From contig JAJFLY010000012.1 in NCBI GenBank assembly GCA_021772455.1, forward strand, positions 1 through 36,425: 36,425 nucleotides of DNA. The letters run 5' to 3'. The translations under genes were made by a program, and so were the position numbers. Source of the stretch: Chlamydiota bacterium. Its GTDB lineage: Bacteria > Chlamydiota > Chlamydiia > Chlamydiales > JAAKFR01. Positions 17,362 to 27,084 of the stretch are shown piece after piece. Numbering within the stretch: position 1 is the stretch's first letter; every line of letters begins with the position of its first letter. The notes beneath the pieces were generated by a model. That model ran no database searches, was not told the DNA's origin, and worked only from the letters and a program-made list of their open reading frames with translations.

Positions 17362-19188
17362 CTACTCAACTGTTACAGATTTTGCGAGGTTGCGGGGCTG
17401 ATCAATTTCGGTCCCACGCTCTTTTGCGACATAATAAGAAAAAAGCTGCCCCACAATTGTGGAGGCAACCGGGGCAAGTTCATCGAGCGTTGGGGGAACC
17501 CAGATTACATCATCGGCAATGGCAGCAATGTCGGAGGCGCCACCAGGAGCAATCGCCAAAACCTTCCCGCCGCGCGCTTTCACTTCCATCAAGTTACTGA
17601 GCATTTTTGGATAGGTGTAGGTATCAGCACAAAAAGCAACCGTCGGACACATTTCGTTAATGAGCGCGATCGGTCCGTGTTTCATCTCGCCTGCTGGATA
17701 GCCATTGGCATTGACGTAGGCAATCTCTTTGAGTTTTAAAGCCCCCTCTAGTGCCGTAGGATACATGTATCTACGGCCGAGATAGAAGAAGTTTTCATAC
17801 GCGGCATATTTTTTCGCAATCTCGATGATCTGCCCACTCCCGAGTAAAACCTGGCGAATCTGCTCAGGAAGTTTTGTCAGGGCATCAATAAACAGAACCC
17901 CCTCTTGCTGGCTCATCTGCCGCATGCGGGCAAAGTGTAGGCTCAGCAGGGAGAGGACAATTAACTGACTGGTAAAGGTTTTCGAAGCGGCAACCCCAAT
18001 TTCGGGTCCTGCACGTAAGAAGAGGCAACTATCGACCTCACGCGCCATTGTGGAGCCTTGCATATTGCAAATTCCTAAAATCCGCGCTCCTTTTTCACGA
18101 AGTTCTCGCATTGCGGCTAACGTGTCGGCAGTCTCTCCCGATTGACTAATTGCGATTGCCAATGTGTTGTCTTTCACAATGGGATTTTTGTAGCGAAACT
18201 CCGAGGATATCTCGACCTCAACGGGAATACGTGCTTTCTCCTCAAGCATGTGGGCGGCAATCATACCCGCATGGAGCGAGGTTCCGCATGCGAGGATGAC
18301 GATACGCTCGACTTTCTTGAGCTCTTCATCGGAAAAATTGAGGTTATCGAGTGTCGCAGTTCCATAATCGCGACTAAAACGGGCGAGAAGAGCATTTTGC
18401 AGAGTTTGGGGCTGCTCATGAATCTCTTTGAGCATGAAATGCTGGTAGTCCCCTTTTGAGGCCTCTTCTACAGAGTGGGATAACTCTTCACGTTTTTTTT
18501 CGATCGGGGCAAATTGAGCATCGAAGGCCTCAACTCCATGTTCGGTCAGAAGTGCAACCTCTGAAGCTCCTAAATAGATGGCTCTCCGGGTGTATTTCAA
18601 AAAGGCACCAGAATCAGAAGCGACAAACATCTCTCCCTTTCCAATTCCAATTGCCAAAGGACTTTCTTTGGCAGCGCATACAATTTCACCGGGATGAGCG
18701 TGGTGGATCACAGCGATCGCAAAGGCCCCTTTAAGAAGAGGCAGCGCACGTTGGACGGCACGTAAGAAATTCCCTTTGTAGAGATAGGCGATCAAATGTG
18801 CAATCACCTCGGTGTCGGTGTCGCTTATGCATGTGATGCCTCTTTTTTCGAGTAAATGGCGTACTGTATCGTGATTTTCGATGATGCCGTTGTGGACAAC
18901 TGCACATTTCTTTTGAGTATCTAAATGAGGATGGGCGTTGCCTTGTGTCGGCCTACCGTGTGTTGCCCAGCGGGTGTGGGCAATCGCGAGGTTTGTCTCC
19001 CAATTTTTAGCCGAGACAACCTCTTGCAACCTGGAAACTTTTCCAACCTCTTTCTCATGACAGAGGACACCATCGTTGATCATCGCAATCCCAGCGGAAT
19101 CGTATCCCCTATACTCGAGCTTCTGAATACCATCCAAGACAATAGAGGTGGCCTCGCGCGGCCCGATATATCCAAAAATCCCGCACAC
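17362..19188 (-). CDS. glmS: Glutamine-fructose-6-phosphate aminotransferase
   Basis: A 608-residue enzyme of normal length. The start is GTG at 19188-19186, overlapping the glmM TAG stop by one base. This start is decisive because Cys2 of MCGIFGYIG must become the N-terminal nucleophile after Met removal. The Ntn glutaminase domain includes AHTRWATHGRPTQGNAHPH and HNGIIENHDTVR. Two SIS domains follow (about 285-430 and 455-600), with ACGTSLHAG, ISQSGETADTLAA and the ending DQPRNLAKSVTVE. It makes glucosamine-6-phosphate for lipid A and peptidoglycan precursors. It corresponds to CT816. Confidence 0.97.
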   Translation of the reverse strand: MCGIFGYIGPREATSIVLDGIQKLEYRGYDSAGIAMINDGVLCHEKEVGKVSRLQEVVSAKNWETNLAIAHTRWATHGRPTQGNAHPHLDTQKKCAVVHNGIIENHDTVRHLLEKRGITCISDTDTEVIAHLIAYLYKGNFLRAVQRALPLLKGAFAIAVIHHAHPGEIVCAAKESPLAIGIGKGEMFVASDSGAFLKYTRRAIYLGASEVALLTEHGVEAFDAQFAPIEKKREELSHSVEEASKGDYQHFMLKEIHEQPQTLQNALLARFSRDYGTATLDNLNFSDEELKKVERIVILACGTSLHAGMIAAHMLEEKARIPVEVEISSEFRYKNPIVKDNTLAIAISQSGETADTLAAMRELREKGARILGICNMQGSTMAREVDSCLFLRAGPEIGVAASKTFTSQLIVLSLLSLHFARMRQMSQQEGVLFIDALTKLPEQIRQVLLGSGQIIEIAKKYAAYENFFYLGRRYMYPTALEGALKLKEIAYVNANGYPAGEMKHGPIALINEMCPTVAFCADTYTYPKMLSNLMEVKARGGKVLAIAPGGASDIAAIADDVIWVPPTLDELAPVASTIVGQLFSYYVAKERGTEIDQPRNLAKSVTVE

Positions 19189-20561
19189 TAGTGTTTCTTC
19201 GCTCCAATTTCTTTTTCGATCTCTTTTGCAATTTTTTGAGCTAAGAGATCAACTTGATGTTTCTTTGGCCCTTCAACCATGACACGGCATAAATCTTGTG
19301 TTCCCGAATAGCGTATCAAGACCCGCCCGTGTTCGGAAAGCTCAGCTTCGACCTCTTCGATCGCTCTTTGAACTCCCGTAAGTTTTTCCATCGGCATTTT
19401 GTTTGTAACCGGTATATTAATCAGAGTTTGAGGGAATTTTTTCACACAAGCGGTTAAATCAGAGAGGGTCGATTCGCTCTCGATCATGATTTTTAGAACT
19501 TGCATGGCACACACAATCCCGTCACCTGTTGTATTGTGCTCAAGAAAGATCATATGCCCGCTCTGCTCGCCACCTAAAAAGGCTTGATTTGCAAGCATTT
19601 CTTGAATGACATTCCGATCTCCAACTTTTGAGAGGTGGACCTCAATTCCGAGAGACTCTAGATATTTCACAACACCGTAGTTGCTCATCACAGTCGCAAC
19701 GACACAGTTATTTTTTAACTCTCCGCGCCGCTTAAGATCCGCTGCACAAATTGCAAGTATGGTATCTCCATCGATGACTTGCCCCTTTTCATCGACCATA
19801 ATGACCCGATCAGCATCACCGTCGAGTGCAATTCCCACATCAGCTTTGTGCTCGATCACCCCTTTTTGAATAATTGAAGGGTGTAGAGAGCCACACCCTT
19901 CGTTGATATTAATCCCGTCAGGTTCATTCCCCGTCACAACAACTTGGGCATCTAACTCCCAAAAAGCTGAGGGCGCAACGCGGTGCGCAGCTCCGTTGGC
20001 ACAATCTAAAAATATTTTTATTCCTTTAAGTGTTTTGCCTTTAGGAAAAGTTGCTTTCACAAATTCGATGTACCGCCCCGCTGCATCTTCGATCCGTATA
20101 TTGCGTCCCAATTCACAGTCAGGGGGTATATCTTCGAATTTCCCCGAAGCAATCATTGTTTCCATTTCGTGCTCAACTTCGTCGGGAAGCTTGATTCCAT
20201 CAGCGGTGAATATTTTGATCCCATTATCATGGTAGGGGTTGTGAGAAGCCGAAATCACGATTCCAGCGTCGGCACGGTAAGCACGCGTGATGAATGCAAC
20301 GGCAGGAGTTGGAAGGGGGCCGAGCATAAGCGTGTCGACTCCCATCGAATTCAGACCAGCGATGAGGGCATTTTCGAACATGTAACAGGAAAGACGTGTG
20401 TCCTTTCCGATCGCGACACGGTGTTTGCCATCATGGCGCCGCAAAACGACCGCAACCGCTTTTCCAAGCATCAAAGCGATCTCAACTGTCATCGGAAAGT
20501 GGTTCGCGCGCCCTCTAACCCCATCGGTACCAAAGAGTTTAAATCCAGATTGCCTATCCAT
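19188..20561 (-). CDS. glmM: Phosphoglucosamine mutase
   Basis: A 457-residue alpha-D-phosphohexomutase. LFGTDGVRGRAN (9-20) is the family start; the phosphoserine is Ser106 in ISASHNPYHDNG; the metal loop is DGDADR (247-252); GGEQSGH provides the sugar-binding loop; and RYSGTQDLCRVMVEG near residue 424 is the phosphate-binding loop, slightly different from the usual RxSGTEPxxRVMxE. It converts glucosamine-6-phosphate to glucosamine-1-phosphate for UDP-GlcNAc synthesis. It is translationally coupled to glmS through TAGTG. It corresponds to CT815 (mrsA). Confidence 0.97.
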   Translation of the reverse strand: MDRQSGFKLFGTDGVRGRANHFPMTVEIALMLGKAVAVVLRRHDGKHRVAIGKDTRLSCYMFENALIAGLNSMGVDTLMLGPLPTPAVAFITRAYRADAGIVISASHNPYHDNGIKIFTADGIKLPDEVEHEMETMIASGKFEDIPPDCELGRNIRIEDAAGRYIEFVKATFPKGKTLKGIKIFLDCANGAAHRVAPSAFWELDAQVVVTGNEPDGININEGCGSLHPSIIQKGVIEHKADVGIALDGDADRVIMVDEKGQVIDGDTILAICAADLKRRGELKNNCVVATVMSNYGVVKYLESLGIEVHLSKVGDRNVIQEMLANQAFLGGEQSGHMIFLEHNTTGDGIVCAMQVLKIMIESESTLSDLTACVKKFPQTLINIPVTNKMPMEKLTGVQRAIEEVEAELSEHGRVLIRYSGTQDLCRVMVEGPKKHQVDLLAQKIAKEIEKEIGAKKH

Positions 20562-20778
20562 CTTATTCCATGTACTTTTGTGTAAACATATAGTAGAAAG
20601 GGTTTTTTTTCCATCATGAGACTATCCAACTCCTTGAAAAACTCTCTTTTTGTGTCTTTTTCCACATCTTTTAGAGCCACTTCTTGGCCTACTAGCCTAA
20701 GTATGTTCTGCGAAGCGGTTCTAAAACCTGTGAAAAAATCCATTAAAAATCAAATTGTTCAAATAGTGGGATAGCCTC

Positions 20779-22119
20779 ATGCAAACACACAACACGACTG
20801 TTGAAGAGATTCAAAAAAAGGTGCGTATGCACTCAGGACTCCTACACTTTTCCTCAAAGGCATCCTCAAATACTTTAAGGAATCGCCCAAAAGATGGGAT
20901 AGACCTCTCAAAGCTCACCAATATCTTGGAGATTGGGCAAGAATGGGCTTACGTGGAACCAGGCGTGACCTTCGCAAATTTGTGCACAGAAACCCTGAAA
21001 CAAGGGTTGCTTCCCCCTGTGGTTCCGGAATTTATGACAATCACTGTCGGTGGAGCTGTCATGGGTGCGGCGCTAGAGAGCAGCTCCCACAGATTTGGGC
21101 AGTTTAGCGATACGTGTCTAGAGTATGAGGTCATCTTAGGAAATGGGGAGGTTGTACAGGCAAGTCCCGATAATAACGCCGATCTATTTTACGGATTATC
21201 TGGAAGTTACGGAACCTTAGGGGTTCTGAGCTCAATCAAATTACGTCTGATTAAAGCTGAAAAATACATTCAAATCTCCAGCCAAAAACTTTCTAATAAA
21301 GATCTTATCGATTTTTTGACACAGCCACAAGAAGCCGATTTTGTCGAAGGGATTGCATTGAATCGCGAATCTGGGGTGGCTCTGATTGGCAAGATGACAG
21401 CGGAGCCAAAATCCCCTCTTTTTCGTCAAAATCGCTACTGGTCTTCCTGGTACATCCAACAGGTGATAGAAAATCCAAATTTCAACTTTTGCATGACAAC
21501 CAAAGAATACCTTTTTCGACTCGATAGAGGAGCCTTTTGGATGGGGCAGTACACTCTTTCAATCCCGACCATGCTACGCTTACTTCTACATATCGGCATC
21601 CCCAAACTGAGTATGCAAGCCCTCTATCCCAAATCGATTTTTCGTTTATTATTCGGATGGATGTTGTCCAGTGGCCGTCTCTATAAAATTTGGCACCGCG
21701 TCCCCAAAAAAATCTCAGAAAATCTTTTTTTTGTGCACGATTTCTATGCGCCTGTCGCAAAAGCCCATGAAGTTTTTACCCATTTTATCGAGCAAACGGA
21801 GATTTTTCCTATTTGGCTTTGCCCGGTCAAAGGGACCTCTTCACCACAAATTTTTGCCCCACACTTTGGCAATGAGCGCTTTTTGAATATCGGGGTGTAT
21901 GGGATGCCAAAATCCTCCCTTTCTACCCCTGAATTATCGGCAAAATTAGAAAACGAAATAACCCTTTTTGGGGGACGAAAAATGTTGTATAGCTATACCT
22001 ATTATGACCGTGAAAATTTTTCAAAAATTTACGATGAAACCCACTATGACGCCTTGCGCCAGAAATTTTTTGCCGAAAAGGCCTTTCCACACATCTACAA
22101 TAAAATCGTGATGTGCTAA
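20779..22119 (+). CDS. FAD-binding oxidoreductase, DHCR24/DWF1 (delta-24 sterol reductase)-like
   Basis: A 446-residue flavoprotein with a PCMH-type FAD domain: VEPGVTFANLC (59-69), LPPVVPEFMTITVGGAV (78-94), ESSSHRFGQF (100-109) and NADLFYGLSGSYGTLGVLSS. These match the DHCR24/Diminuto pattern (EPGVTMGxL, VVPExxxxTVGGL, EgSSHxYGLFxD, DLFYAxPWSxGTLG). The C-terminal half also matches: IFPIWLCPVK, NIGVYGMPK, and KMLYSYTYYDRENF followed by AFPHIYNKI. That makes it a full-length family member rather than a generic FAD oxidase. Eukaryotic DHCR24 reduces the delta-24 side-chain bond of sterols. The N-terminal membrane anchor of those enzymes is missing. The substrate here is unknown. It leads the pcnB-hydrolase-GT2-lpxB gene run; the gap to pcnB is 12 bases. 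Confidence 0.8.
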   Translation: MQTHNTTVEEIQKKVRMHSGLLHFSSKASSNTLRNRPKDGIDLSKLTNILEIGQEWAYVEPGVTFANLCTETLKQGLLPPVVPEFMTITVGGAVMGAALESSSHRFGQFSDTCLEYEVILGNGEVVQASPDNNADLFYGLSGSYGTLGVLSSIKLRLIKAEKYIQISSQKLSNKDLIDFLTQPQEADFVEGIALNRESGVALIGKMTAEPKSPLFRQNRYWSSWYIQQVIENPNFNFCMTTKEYLFRLDRGAFWMGQYTLSIPTMLRLLLHIGIPKLSMQALYPKSIFRLLFGWMLSSGRLYKIWHRVPKKISENLFFVHDFYAPVAKAHEVFTHFIEQTEIFPIWLCPVKGTSSPQIFAPHFGNERFLNIGVYGMPKSSLSTPELSAKLENEITLFGGRKMLYSYTYYDRENFSKIYDETHYDALRQKFFAEKAFPHIYNKIVMC

Positions 22120-22131
22120 GCTATCTCGCCC

Positions 22132-23310
22132 ATGAAAGAAAAAATCTATACCGAAAAAGATCACCACATCCGCAACGACCTCATCGACCCAAGCGCGCTT
22201 ACCGTGCTCAAAAAACTCCATGAGGCAGGCTATACTGCTTATTTAGTTGGAGGGGGTGTCCGAGATCTTCTTATGCGCAAAAAACCCAAGGACTTCGATA
22301 TCTCTACGTCGGCAAAACCCGAGGAGATCAAAGCCGTTTTTCAGCGCAGTTGTCTCCTAATTGGACGCCGTTTTCGGCTCGCTCACATCCGTTTTGGACG
22401 GACGATCATTGAGGTTTCCACATTCCGTGCAGGCGATCCTACCGATGGCGAGCTTATCGTTCACGACAACATATGGGGATCTCCCGAGGAAGATGCCTTA
22501 AGGCGTGATTTCACGATCAATGGACTTTTTTACGATCCGCTTGACCATAAAATCATCGATTATGTCGGTGGCTTTGAGGATCTTAAAGAGCATTGCCTGC
22601 GAGCAATCGGCGATCCAACTTTGCGCTTTAAGCAAGACCCTGTTCGAATGATCCGGATGCTAAAATTTCGCGCACGTTTTGGCTTCAATGTTGATCCAAA
22701 AGCCCTCGAAGCATTGGATGGCTGCCGGGAAGAAATCAAGAAAAGCTCCCCTGCACGGGTGTTAGAAGAGATCTTTCGGATGCTCGAATCAGGAGCCTCG
22801 GAACCCTTTTTCCACCTCCTAGCAGAATCAAAAATCCTTAAAATCCTTTTCCCCCAGCTGAATATCTACTTTCATGAGCCCATAGCTGAGCGCATCTACG
22901 CCTATTTAAAAGCGTCCGACTCGATGAACGCCCAAGCGGGATATCGTACGCTCGACAGGTCTATTTTAACAGCAGCCATGATCTTCCCTATTTTAGATGA
23001 GGAACTTAAACGCCTGGATCCCCCTCCTCACTTCGGCGAGATCATAGATCACTCTCATGATATGATTGAAGAGTTGCTTACCGAATCATGCGCACATTTT
23101 CCCCGCAAAATCCGTTTACGCTGCCACTTTATCCTCCAGACACAATACCGCTTAACCCCCTTTGATAAGAACAAGCGACCCCGCTCGCGAATCGTGAACC
23201 AAAAAGAATTTATCTATGCCCTCACGTTTTTAAAACTGCGCGCGCTCATCCACCCCGAGTACTTTAAAACGTATGAGCATTGGAAGCGTCTATCAACCAA
23301 GAGGACTTAA
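22132..23310 (+). CDS. pcnB: Poly(A) polymerase I (class II nucleotidyltransferase)
   Basis: A 392-residue enzyme. The nucleotidyltransferase head shows YLVGGGVRDLLMRKKPKDFD (38-57) with Asp54 and Asp56 as metal ligands. LIGRRFRLAHIRF (76-88) is the signature separating bacterial poly(A) polymerases from CCA-adding enzymes. EDALRRDFTINGLFYDP and the RNA-binding RFKQDPVRMIRMLKFRARF segment follow. It adds 3' A-tails that feed mRNA decay. C. trachomatis CT410 is also adjacent to lpxB. A basic C-terminal extension as in E. coli PcnB is short here. Confidence 0.93.
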   Translation: MKEKIYTEKDHHIRNDLIDPSALTVLKKLHEAGYTAYLVGGGVRDLLMRKKPKDFDISTSAKPEEIKAVFQRSCLLIGRRFRLAHIRFGRTIIEVSTFRAGDPTDGELIVHDNIWGSPEEDALRRDFTINGLFYDPLDHKIIDYVGGFEDLKEHCLRAIGDPTLRFKQDPVRMIRMLKFRARFGFNVDPKALEALDGCREEIKKSSPARVLEEIFRMLESGASEPFFHLLAESKILKILFPQLNIYFHEPIAERIYAYLKASDSMNAQAGYRTLDRSILTAAMIFPILDEELKRLDPPPHFGEIIDHSHDMIEELLTESCAHFPRKIRLRCHFILQTQYRLTPFDKNKRPRSRIVNQKEFIYALTFLKLRALIHPEYFKTYEHWKRLSTKRT

Positions 23311-23313
23311 GGA

Positions 23314-24084
23314 TTGAAACGCCTTGACTGTGATGGCACTGAAATCTGTTACCTTGGACTCGGCCCTGAAGCCGGGCCACTGCCCGCGCTCTTCTATTTC
23401 TCCCTTTCTGGAGAGGAAAGTTTAACACTTTCTCCCTACAATTCCCCTGCAGCTTTGCTTGAAGGAGCACCTCTGCGTGTTTTTTCGATGACGATCCCTG
23501 GCCATGGCGAAGATTTTGACAAGCTTCATGCGATCAAATACTGGGCCGATCAAATGGCCGAAGAGAACTATATCCTCGAAGAATTTTTTGAAAAAATCAC
23601 CTCCTCAATCGACTGGCTGATTGAGAATGGTTATGTCGATCCAGACCACATCGCTGTGGGAGGACTTTCGCGAGGAGCCTTTGTGGCGACCCATGTCGCA
23701 GCACTCGAGAAACGAATCAAAATAATTCTAGGCTTTGCCCCCCTCACTAAATTGAGTGCTACAGAGGAATTTTCTTCTGCCGAACGGGGAGTTCGTGTTA
23801 AAGTACGTGCTGCCACTCTTGATTTAGAGCATTTAGCAGAAAAACTCACCCATATCCATAATCTTCGATTCTATATCGGGAACAGGGATGAGCGTGTGAG
23901 TACCGATGCCTGCTATTGCTTTCTTCGAAAATTGGCCAATACCGCCCATGAAATCCGAGCGCGGCACATGAATGTTGAATTAAACCTCACCCAAGCAATT
24001 GGGCATAAGGGGCACGGAACATCTCCTCAAACTTTTGAAGAGGGAACTCTTTGGGTAAAAGACCACCTACTAGGGAAAAGGTAA
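23314..24084 (+). CDS. Alpha/beta hydrolase (serine esterase/peptidase-like)
   Basis: A 256-residue cytosolic protein. The start is TTG at 23314, three bases after the pcnB stop; no in-frame ATG exists near the N terminus, and AGAGGA inside the end of pcnB serves as Shine-Dalgarno. The nucleophile elbow GGLSRGAF gives Ser119, IGNRDERV gives a probable acid Asp192, and IGHKGHGTSP gives the His (231 or 234). SMTIPGHGEDF (58-68) looks like the oxyanion or cap strand region. The fold resembles prolyl-oligopeptidase or acetyl-xylan-esterase-type hydrolases; the substrate is unknown. As I recall, this gene is not between pcnB and lpxB in C. trachomatis. Confidence 0.8.
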   Translation: MKRLDCDGTEICYLGLGPEAGPLPALFYFSLSGEESLTLSPYNSPAALLEGAPLRVFSMTIPGHGEDFDKLHAIKYWADQMAEENYILEEFFEKITSSIDWLIENGYVDPDHIAVGGLSRGAFVATHVAALEKRIKIILGFAPLTKLSATEEFSSAERGVRVKVRAATLDLEHLAEKLTHIHNLRFYIGNRDERVSTDACYCFLRKLANTAHEIRARHMNVELNLTQAIGHKGHGTSPQTFEEGTLWVKDHLLGKR

Positions 24085-24088
24085 ACAG

Positions 24089-24808
24089 ATGCGTTATTCC
24101 ATTGTTATTCCAATTAAGAACGAAGAAGAAAATATCGAAGATCTCGTTGCCGAGATCGAACCTGTAATGGAAGGGATGAAACACCCGTGGGAGTTGATCT
24201 GCATCGACGACGGCTCAACAGACAGCAGCCTTTTACTATTACAAGACCTATGCAAGCAAAAGCCCTATTTACGCGTCTTAACCTTCACACGCAACTTTGG
24301 GCAGTCGGCAGCCTTTGCCGCCGGTTTTAAAGCCGCACGGGGAGAGTTTATTATCACTCTCGATGGAGATCGCCAAAACGATCCCGCTGACATTCCAAAG
24401 CTTACAGCTGCCATGACAGATTGTGATCTTGTTGTAGGGTGGCGGGTTAACCGAAAAGATCCCTTGAAAAAACGACTCGTCTCCCGCCTCTCCAACTGGG
24501 TGCGTAGCCGCCTTTGCCGCGATGAAATGCATGACACAGGCTGCTCGCTCAAGGTCTATCGCAGTACATCGCTTAAACAGATTAAGATGTACACAGGGAT
24601 GCACCGTTTTTTACCAGCCCTGTTTAAAATTGAAGGGTTTCGCATAAAAGAGGTTCCCGTTAACCACCGTGAGCGGGCAAAAGGCGAGACAAAATACCAC
24701 TTCTTCAACCGCTCGATCGGCCCCATTGTCGATATGTTTGTCGTCCGCTGGATGCGGAGGCGCGCTCTGCATCACAAAATACGCGAAGAAATTTCTCATG
24801 AACGTTGA
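24089..24808 (+). CDS. Family 2 glycosyltransferase (dolichyl/undecaprenyl-phosphate sugar synthase-like)
   Basis: A 239-residue GT-A enzyme starting MRYSIVIPIKNEEENI. CIDDGSTD (38-45) and ITLDGDRQNDPADIP (89-103) are the nucleotide-sugar and metal-binding motifs, and NFGQSAAFAAGF (69-80) matches the DPM1/ArnC subgroup. HDTGCSLKVYR and VPVNHRERAKGETKYHFFNR are also typical. It lacks the C-terminal transmembrane helices of ArnC/GtrB, so it is probably a peripheral enzyme transferring a sugar to a polyprenyl phosphate. It overlaps lpxB by 11 bases. In other bacteria LAB_N domains such as the one at the start of LpxB here are often encoded beside such GT2 enzymes, so a role in modifying lipid A is plausible. 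Confidence 0.88.
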   Translation: MRYSIVIPIKNEEENIEDLVAEIEPVMEGMKHPWELICIDDGSTDSSLLLLQDLCKQKPYLRVLTFTRNFGQSAAFAAGFKAARGEFIITLDGDRQNDPADIPKLTAAMTDCDLVVGWRVNRKDPLKKRLVSRLSNWVRSRLCRDEMHDTGCSLKVYRSTSLKQIKMYTGMHRFLPALFKIEGFRIKEVPVNHRERAKGETKYHFFNRSIGPIVDMFVVRWMRRRALHHKIREEISHER

Positions 24809-26558
24809 TGCTTTACGCTCCTTCCTCTACCCCCTTGGGCTGATTGCGAGCCTCTTATTTGGCCTTAGATTCCTCTTTCAATGGATTCAAAGCGAGCGCA
24901 AAGGGGCGAGTACCGTCACCCACCTCTTTTGGGTCATCTCTCTTGTCGCAAATGGGATTATGTGCGTACATGCCTACATCCAACTCCAGTATCCAGTCTG
25001 CCTTCTCCAAGCCCTCAACGCCGTGATTGCCTGGCGCAATCTCAACCTAATGGGCGCACGCCCCCTCGCCAAAAAACGTGTGGTGACACTCATGGTGTTG
25101 ACAACCGCTGCAATCTCATTGCTTTTCATACGCGAAAATATCTGGATGCGCCCTCCCACAATGCCATGGAGTGGCAACCATGCGACAAACCCCGCCACTT
25201 TTTGGCATGTAATCGGATTTGGTGGGATGCTCCTCTTTGCCAGCCGTTTTTGGATCCAATGGTGGCTCGCCGAAAAACACCAAAAGAGCTTCCTAAGCAA
25301 ACCCTTTTGGTGGACAAGTCTTTTCGGCGCTCTACTCTCGCTCGCCTATTTTATCCGCTTGAACGACCCCGTCAATATCCTCGGCTATAGCGTTGGTATC
25401 ATCCCTTACATCCGCAACCTCATGCTTCTTAACAAGCCCATACAAAAAAAAGGGGAAGGATTATTCCTATTTGCAGGAGAGACAAGCGGTGATGTTTTAG
25501 GAGGAAAGTTAGTCGAAGCCCTCAAGCAGCGCGACCCCACCCTCTCCATTTCAGGAGTTGGCGGCCCCCTCATGCGAACAGCTGGCATGGAGATCACCCA
25601 TCCCATGGAACGGTTTCAGGTGATGGGCTTCTCCGATGTCCTCTTCGCCTTGCCCCGCTTACTTATGGATATGCGAAGAATCAAAAAGCGCATCCTAAAA
25701 GAGCAGCCCGCAGGTGTCGTTCTGATCGACTATGCCGATTTTAACATGCTCCTAGCAAAGGCACTACGCAAAAAAGGGTATCAAGGAAAACTCGTCCACT
25801 ACGTCTGCCCCTCTGTTTGGGCATGGCGCAAAAACCGCGTCAAATCGCTTGCAAAAACACTCGATAGCCTCCTTTCAATCCTCCCCTTTGAAGAGAACTG
25901 CTTCACAGGAACCAAACTCCCCGTCACCTATGTCGGCCATCCCCTCGTCGCCGCAATCGACACCTACACATACGATGCCACCTACGAGCTGCCAACAGAT
26001 AAACCCATCTTAGCCCTCTTTCCCGGCAGCCGCCGCCACGAAATTGCTCTAAACCTACCCATTCAATGGGAAATTGCCAAAAAATTCCCTGACTACACAC
26101 CTGTAATTTCTGTCGCCCGCCCCGAGCTGATGGAAGAAATAAAAAAGCATGTCGGTCCAGATGCACATTTTGTTCCCCAAGACAAGCGGTACGAGCTGAT
26201 GCGCGCAGCTAAACTTGCCCTTGCCACTTCCGGGACAATCGTCTTGGAGATTGGGCTTCACGCTGTTCCCACAGTCGTCACCTACCAGGTGGCCGGACTA
26301 AACTATCTACTTGGGCGCTACATCTTCCGCATCCACCTCCCCTTCTATACGCTTGTCAACATCATCTGTGAGCGCGAGGTCTATCCCGAATTTATCCACA
26401 AAGACCTCTCTGTCGATGAGATCGCGACAACGCTGCGGAACTTGGATGTAAAGAAATGCCGAGAAGCGTGCTTCGAGTTGCGCAAGAGACTACTTGGGCA
26501 AAACGCGAGCCAGGAAGCTGCCAAGACGATCGAGAATTTGATCAAAGAACCCACATAA
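24798..26558 (+). CDS. lpxB: Lipid-A-disaccharide synthase with N-terminal LAB_N membrane fusion
   Basis: A 586-residue fusion from ATG 24798 (MNVDALRSFL). Residues about 12-87 and 140-212 are two LAB_N repeats, each with a paired-helix pattern (FGLRFLFQWIQSERKG and FASRFWIQWWLAEKHQKS) and an ending of the form RNL plus hydrophobics. Residues about 221-586 are the GT19 LpxB domain: LFLFAGETSGD (222-232), LIDYADFN, YVCPSVWAWRKNR, LFPGSRRHEI and ATSGTIVLEIGLHAVP. It joins UDP-2,3-diacylglucosamine and lipid X to lipid A disaccharide-1-phosphate. Chlamydia LpxB (CT411) is also about 600 residues with this fusion. An upstream in-frame ATG at 24669 would lie inside the GT2 gene and is rejected. 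Confidence 0.95.
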   Translation: MNVDALRSFLYPLGLIASLLFGLRFLFQWIQSERKGASTVTHLFWVISLVANGIMCVHAYIQLQYPVCLLQALNAVIAWRNLNLMGARPLAKKRVVTLMVLTTAAISLLFIRENIWMRPPTMPWSGNHATNPATFWHVIGFGGMLLFASRFWIQWWLAEKHQKSFLSKPFWWTSLFGALLSLAYFIRLNDPVNILGYSVGIIPYIRNLMLLNKPIQKKGEGLFLFAGETSGDVLGGKLVEALKQRDPTLSISGVGGPLMRTAGMEITHPMERFQVMGFSDVLFALPRLLMDMRRIKKRILKEQPAGVVLIDYADFNMLLAKALRKKGYQGKLVHYVCPSVWAWRKNRVKSLAKTLDSLLSILPFEENCFTGTKLPVTYVGHPLVAAIDTYTYDATYELPTDKPILALFPGSRRHEIALNLPIQWEIAKKFPDYTPVISVARPELMEEIKKHVGPDAHFVPQDKRYELMRAAKLALATSGTIVLEIGLHAVPTVVTYQVAGLNYLLGRYIFRIHLPFYTLVNIICEREVYPEFIHKDLSVDEIATTLRNLDVKKCREACFELRKRLLGQNASQEAAKTIENLIKEPT

Positions 26559-26640
26559 TTTTTCCATGTGTTCCACCTGCAATTGGTGCAATCATGATAC
26601 AGCTACATCTGGAACACGATATACAACCTTATTGGATGCT

Positions 26641-27084
26641 ATGAAGCCTTTTTTAATTATTTGCACACTTTGCATACTCTTTTTATCGAAAGGATTTGCA
26701 ACCCCCTATGCCATACAAGATCGAACGATTGCCAAACTCGACAGGTTTGAAAAAGCTCTCGATTGGCTCGTTACACATCGTAAACAATTAACTGAAGAGC
26801 AGAGTAAAACACTTGAAGAACTTGGACTTTTAGATGAAGTAAGCAATGCTAATGAAATTATCGAGCAGGAAATGATTAAGGCTCAAGAAGCCTTTAGGCA
26901 ACTGCGTCAACATATCTACCAAATTGTCCTTGCCGCCAATGTTAGTAACCATGAAGTAAAAGAGTTGATTATTCAATCTCAAGCAGAGCTTGTGAACTGG
27001 TACACAGCGTATATGGAAAACATAGTATTCCCCGAAAATTGGGAGACTTGCTTTCAAGCATATCTTGATAAAAAAGATAGATAA
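26641..27084 (+). CDS. Small secreted helical protein, hypothetical
   Basis: A 147-residue protein from ATG 26641, chosen because residues 1-20 then form a clean signal peptide (MKPFLIICTLCILFLSKGFA, then TP). An upstream in-frame ATG at 26566 would add 25 Cys-rich residues and bury the signal. The mature part is predominantly helical and acidic (ALDWLVTHRKQLTEEQSKTL; EIIEQEMIKAQEAFRQLRQ), with no motif I recognise. It is AT-rich compared with lpxB and plsX on either side. A weak inverted repeat GTGTTCCA/TGGAACAC (26568-26575 and 26610-26617) precedes it. It stands between lpxB and the convergent plsX, six bases from the plsX stop. Confidence 0.65.
   Translation: MKPFLIICTLCILFLSKGFATPYAIQDRTIAKLDRFEKALDWLVTHRKQLTEEQSKTLEELGLLDEVSNANEIIEQEMIKAQEAFRQLRQHIYQIVLAANVSNHEVKELIIQSQAELVNWYTAYMENIVFPENWETCFQAYLDKKDR

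Follow-up and report, generated by a model that had tools for sequence, protein, structure and literature searches.

A protein referred to here as X, a working label for the DHCR24-like open reading frame (ORF) at positions 20779–22119 (+) of the window (the whole 36,425-nucleotide stretch of chlamydial DNA that was analyzed), belongs to the DHCR24 superfamily, with homology that spans both a PCMH/VAO-type FAD domain and the C-terminal domain. Within that superfamily, X falls in a bacterial subfamily that is distinct from the eukaryotic sterol enzymes and from BfaA, a fatty-acyl reductase. We slightly favor the view that X works in the cytoplasm as an FAD-dependent ene-reductase of the DHCR24/BfaA type, reducing an isolated C=C close to the terminus of a lipid tail, likely in a terminal isoprene. 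This reaction class is likely, and a sterol is one of several possible substrates.

X heads a tight co-directional run of genes. Features of the locus are listed below in window coordinates, where "family" denotes Ca. Sororchlamydiaceae, the family of the window.

17362..19188, minus strand: glmS (TIGR01135, 791 bits); conserved in the family
19188..20561, minus strand: glmM, divergent upstream neighbor of X (TIGR01455, 631 bits); conserved in the family
20562..20778, no strand: predicted promoter region of the X run, the 217-bp gap between divergent glmM and X
20779..22119, plus strand: X, DHCR24-like FAD-dependent reductase, 446 aa (blastp, Pfam, tree, AlphaFold model)
22132..23310, plus strand: pcnB, polynucleotide adenylyltransferase (TIGR01942, 368.9 bits, over cut-off); adjoins X in 8/8 family loci
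23314..24084, plus strand: alpha/beta hydrolase with a TTG start (PF00326, 25.4 bits, just over cut-off); kept in 7/8 family loci
24089..24808, plus strand: GT2 glycosyltransferase, polyprenyl-phosphate-glycosyltransferase-like (PF00535, 100 bits; best NCBIfam match, NF007986 (ArnC), below cut-off)
24798..26558, plus strand: lpxB with an N-terminal LAB_N domain (PF02684, 324.7 bits; PF07578, 153.7 bits)

The ORF of X occupies exactly 20779–22119 from ATG to stop. A first-pass annotation of this DNA had described a whole-length match to the delta-24 sterol reductase family, and the alignment bears this out: against human DHCR24, represented by a non-database sequence, blastp gives 30% identity over 477 columns (E 8e-61) with both ends covered. 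All of the motifs it named are present as well, namely EPGVT (residues 60–64), TVGG (within ITVGG, 88–92), SSSHRFGQF (101–109), IWLCPVK (345–351), and AFPHIYNKI near the end. The human DHCR24 and Arabidopsis DWF1 sequences (EC 1.3.1.72, K09828) used throughout were not taken from database records, and every identity or tree position derived from them should be read with this in mind. Among the residues that we take to be affected in human desmosterolosis (R103, E191, Y471, N294, K306, and R94), the first three are kept in X as R34, E117, and Y404; N294 and K306 are changed, and R94 is without alignment. X differs further from DHCR24/DWF1 around residues 246–250, where HRHTR is replaced by FRLDR, in an extra segment after residue 256, and in the lack of an N-terminal membrane anchor. 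The 19-residue hydropathy maximum of X lies at residues 76–99, within the FAD domain, and no N-terminal anchor was indicated by this measure.

The sole Pfam match in X is FAD_binding_4 (PF01565; residues 41–128, E 4.6e-15), and it begins at profile position 48, with the first 47 positions missing. In many oxidases, the N-terminal loop of the FAD domain is the carrier of covalently bound FAD, so the lack of this loop (PF01565 positions 1–47) in X fits a reductase. Built from an alignment of 55 sequences, the AlphaFold model has high confidence (pLDDT 93.7, pTM 0.92) and displays a VAO/PCMH-type fold. Its best PDB matches by Foldseek are cytokinin oxidase and DprE1 (TM about 0.6), and there is no solved DHCR24 structure among the PDB matches listed for X. 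These two enzymes resemble X in fold and in FAD-domain sequence, but they oxidize their substrates and their sequence similarity to X is mainly in the FAD part.

DHCR24 reduces a C=C bond in the lipid tail of sterols, the side-chain C24=C25. In BfaA/BfaB, methylation is followed by reduction to yield 10-methyl stearate, with BfaA acting as the 10-methylene-stearate reductase (PMC5660069, PMC7791843). The two characterized branches of the superfamily thus both act as reductases on a C=C of a lipid tail, which counts in favor of an ene-reductase role for X. The analysis establishes the family, fold, gene order, conservation, and missing pathways, whereas the direction of the reaction, the cofactor, and the substrate are inferred. 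The reaction likely runs from NADPH through FAD to the alkene, with NADPH use carried over from DHCR24 and BfaA. A nicotinamide nucleotide would reduce the FAD bound to X, the flavin N5 would then deliver a hydride to one carbon of the alkene, and the other carbon would be protonated by an acidic residue of X. The candidate proton donor is Glu84 of the PEF motif, which aligned in the PDB sequence search with an Asp of cytokinin oxidase, presumably the catalytic Asp169 of maize CKX1.

The substrate class would most likely be a terminal isoprene unit ((CH3)2C=CH-). Its source would be either the side chain of a host sterol, which is the foremost single candidate, or the terminus of the bacterium's own polyprenyl or quinone tail, since the genome is devoid of a squalene, sterol, hopanoid, or C30/C40 carotenoid pathway. 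The first-pass annotation had suggested a search for other sterol genes, and this came back negative: family searches of the genome found no squalene/phytoene synthase (PF00494), no squalene-hopene/oxidosqualene cyclase (PF13243), and no ERG4/ERG24 (PF01222), the last being absent from all 10 family genomes. Given the lack of sterol-pathway genes, any sterol could come only from a host.

X is a real, conserved, and selected gene. At E<=1e-20, relatives occur in 40 of 234 Chlamydiota genomes; within its own family, 9 of the 10 genomes have the gene, the tenth being 61% complete. Substitutions relative to the nearest relative are mostly synonymous (pN 0.18, pS 0.76), although pS is near saturation and no ratio is given. 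A congeneric species has a second, intact copy next to a DEAD helicase gene (L148:4911-6362). At the corresponding site in the window's genome (G000:C19:5999-6297, L149), all that is left is a disrupted fragment, about 130 codons long and split between two frames. One copy has thus decayed, and X has been retained. The X proteins of two MAGs labeled Verrucomicrobia (L037 and L050) fall within the chlamydial clade, so the labels of these MAGs may be wrong.

The family includes the marine-sediment MAGs K940_chlam_9 and KR126_chlam_2 as well as the sponge MAGs O_S4, and a published listing places the two sediment MAGs in Chlamydiae Clade IV. This clade has been named Ca. Sororchlamydiaceae and is sister to the Chlamydiaceae, with relatives from sponges, which are eukaryotic hosts (PMC9666466). 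Sterol reductases across the family are already in print, with trees for K00223/K00213 and K09828 (PMC9666466). Since ERG4/ERG24 is found in none of the 10 family genomes, the sterol reductase reported there is most likely X.

The usual gene order in the family is glmS-glmM (divergent) followed by X-pcnB-hydrolase-GT2-lpxB. In the window, the gaps that follow X are 12, 3, and 4 bp (pcnB, alpha/beta hydrolase, and GT2), ending in an overlap into lpxB, whose ORF is open from 24669 and likely starts at the ATG at 24798. X therefore leads a run containing lpxB and a GT2 enzyme, as first described, but the term "lipid operon" was an overstatement: the second gene is pcnB, a poly(A) polymerase. It counts against the ene-reductase reading that pcnB and lpxB are housekeeping genes and that no lipid-uptake or isoprenoid genes lie alongside. 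A 172-aa protein 3′ of lpxB (window 26566-27084) is without a Pfam or NCBIfam match. In another chlamydial lineage, a SIS-domain gene and lpxK lie immediately downstream of the X-type gene (L042:5881-9347, L044:5980-9286), an adjacency to lipid A genes that is possibly due to chance.

When 84,980 species were scanned, each represented by one genome, relatives turned up in Chlamydiota, Patescibacteria, a Woesearchaeon, Blastochloris, Actinomycetota, and other Proteobacteria. In the best tree, BfaA forms one side of a long branch (support 100/100), the Patescibacteria-type proteins group with Blastochloris (98/92), and the chlamydial proteins form a single, weakly supported group (75/48). The bacterial relatives form clades of their own. 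The eukaryotic pair, consisting of the two non-database sequences, is a separate long branch that lies beside the chlamydial clade, but weakly (75/54). About 40 columns share the same majority residue in the chlamydial, Patescibacteria-type, BfaA, and eukaryotic groups. Other conserved columns favor a eukaryotic link for the chlamydial proteins, as judged from sequence: His104 and Tyr374 are common to the chlamydial and eukaryotic enzymes and are mostly Phe and Trp in the other two groups. The Patescibacteria-type loci were searched for a shared gene neighbor that would name a substrate, and none was found. In a Saccharibacteria genome (L065:7282-8855), the X gene is followed by an ORF of no known function and a weak, below-cut-off lycopene-cyclase match, a hint of an isoprenoid context. 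A search of viral contigs with the non-database DWF1 sequence found no eukaryote-type relatives. The single "viral" relative (IMG/VR contig L103) was set aside as a case of a viral gene, as it matches a Blastochloris chromosome without a difference across 6335 bp and is probably a misclassified bacterial piece.

Tentatively, X could be a true sterol C24 reductase that saturates the side chain of host sterols and so modifies them within the membrane of the bacterium or of the inclusion. The whole-length match to DHCR24, the shared His104 and Tyr374, the position of the eukaryotic enzymes in the best tree, and the occurrence of relatives in sponges all point this way, and a precedent exists in Coxiella, where Stmp1/CBU1206 is a functional sterol reductase of the ERG4/ERG24 type in an intracellular bacterium (PMC8787468, PMC5418226). 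That enzyme is, however, a multi-pass membrane protein with nine predicted TM segments and is unrelated to the flavoprotein X. An ERG4-type identity for X itself was rejected as the wrong family, X not being a PF01222 membrane protein. The placement in the tree is also weak: by AU tests, neither a grouping of the eukaryotic enzymes with BfaA (p 0.48) nor one with the Patescibacteria-type proteins (p 0.40) was rejected. In addition, related enzymes occur in bacteria not known to meet sterols. Among Chlamydiota outside the family, X and ERG4/ERG24 co-occur in 16 genomes versus 9.4 expected (p 0.006; by genera, p 0.04), but this modest excess is similar to that of a control pair, ERG4 and CMAS, and it was dropped as support for a sterol function. 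Of the two substrates first envisaged, a host-derived sterol or an isoprenoid chain, the latter fits the terminal isoprene proposed here, while the former is only partly supported.

A rather doubtful reading is that X saturates the bacterium's own polyprenyl-phosphate (or quinone) tail, for example, the last isoprene unit of a lipid carrier that serves the GT2 enzyme of the run. This bond and sterol C24=C25 sit in the same chemical group, and the GT2 resembles polyprenyl-phosphate glycosyltransferases and keeps its position in 7 of 8 family loci. Set against this, the conserved gene order takes in pcnB too, and in other chlamydial clades the X-type gene sits in other locations.

A role for X as a BfaA-type enzyme that reduces methylene fatty acyl chains is quite unlikely, despite membership in the same superfamily, 28% identity, a soluble nature, and probably the same chemistry. 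The two fall in separate clades (100/100), and gene context divides them: a CMAS methyltransferase is adjacent in 36/36 BfaA-clade loci (Actinomycetota and Beta/Gammaproteobacteria; L067-L102) but in none of the chlamydial and Patescibacteria-type loci, and family search found no CMAS anywhere in the X genome. Two other chlamydiae (G144 and G066) carry a CMAS-linked BfaA-type protein plus an X-type protein, so the two types probably do different jobs. Without the methyltransferase, a BfaA-type pathway for X was rejected and is largely refuted. The paired CMAS and BfaA-type genes in these chlamydiae (L162:4143-6696, G144:C28; L163:2534-5034, G066:C115) constitute an apparent 10-methyl fatty acid pathway in Chlamydiota. 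As for the earlier remark that bacterial relatives are poorly characterized, it applies to a large bacterial group but not to the BfaA branch, which is known to reduce a fatty-acyl methylene (PMC5660069). Bsr, CruI, and TmpA are further FAD enzymes with a known or proposed reductase activity on the C=C of a lipid tail or terminal isoprene (PMC12004948, PMC6166724, PMC7791843); they are of the geranylgeranyl-reductase family, to which X has no match in Pfam or NCBIfam.

Finally, a generic FAD-linked alditol, lactone, or alcohol oxidase is a most improbable identity for X and is refuted by sequence placement, in agreement with the first-pass annotation: the FAD_binding_4 domain is common to X and such oxidases, but their family matches, including those to lactone oxidases, DprE1, and cytokinin oxidases among PDB sequences, are mainly confined to the N-terminal FAD part and end after about residue 185–240, the NCBIfam scores are far below cut-off (alditol/lactone oxidase models TIGR01679, 28.8 of 292 bits; TIGR01678, 26.9 of 397 bits), and the C-terminal half is DHCR24-like.

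The preferred reading of X as a lipid-tail ene-reductase is extended by its relatives in Blastochloris, the sole free-living photosynthetic genus met with an X-type protein. A DHCR24-superfamily protein is present in 3/3 Blastochloris genomes (L051, L171, L172; G234, G632, G633), with 72–100% identity to each other's reference, and in 0 of 396 other genomes sampled from the same order (E<=1e-40). The carotenoid C1=C2 bond and the sterol C24=C25 bond both sit in this kind of terminal isoprene group. In Blastochloris viridis, which is without cruI, 1,2-dihydrocarotenoids are produced and are still made without bchP, from which it was deduced in 2018 that a second, unrelated 1,2-reductase must exist (PMC6166724). 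We propose that the Blastochloris DHCR24-like protein may be this missing carotenoid 1,2-reductase. The two Blastochloris lineages have no shared neighbors of the gene, and a literature search found no paper that links a DHCR24-type protein to this activity. A broader notion, possible but not one we would lean on, is that the chlamydial, Patescibacteria-type, and Blastochloris proteins are one soluble flavin group that saturates terminal isoprenes, acting on host sterols in chlamydiae and on carotenoids in Blastochloris as the missing 1,2-reductase.

The presence of X in the family was already known; what adds interest is the subfamily split and the link to Blastochloris. A single sterol-reductase label now covers the eukaryotic sterol enzymes, the BfaA methylene reductases, and a large uncharacterized bacterial group, and these are separated here. 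For Blastochloris, the analysis puts forward a specific protein that may be the carotenoid 1,2-reductase deduced but not named in the 2018 study (PMC6166724). Among the chlamydiae, the family sister to the animal pathogens keeps an enzyme that could alter a host membrane lipid.
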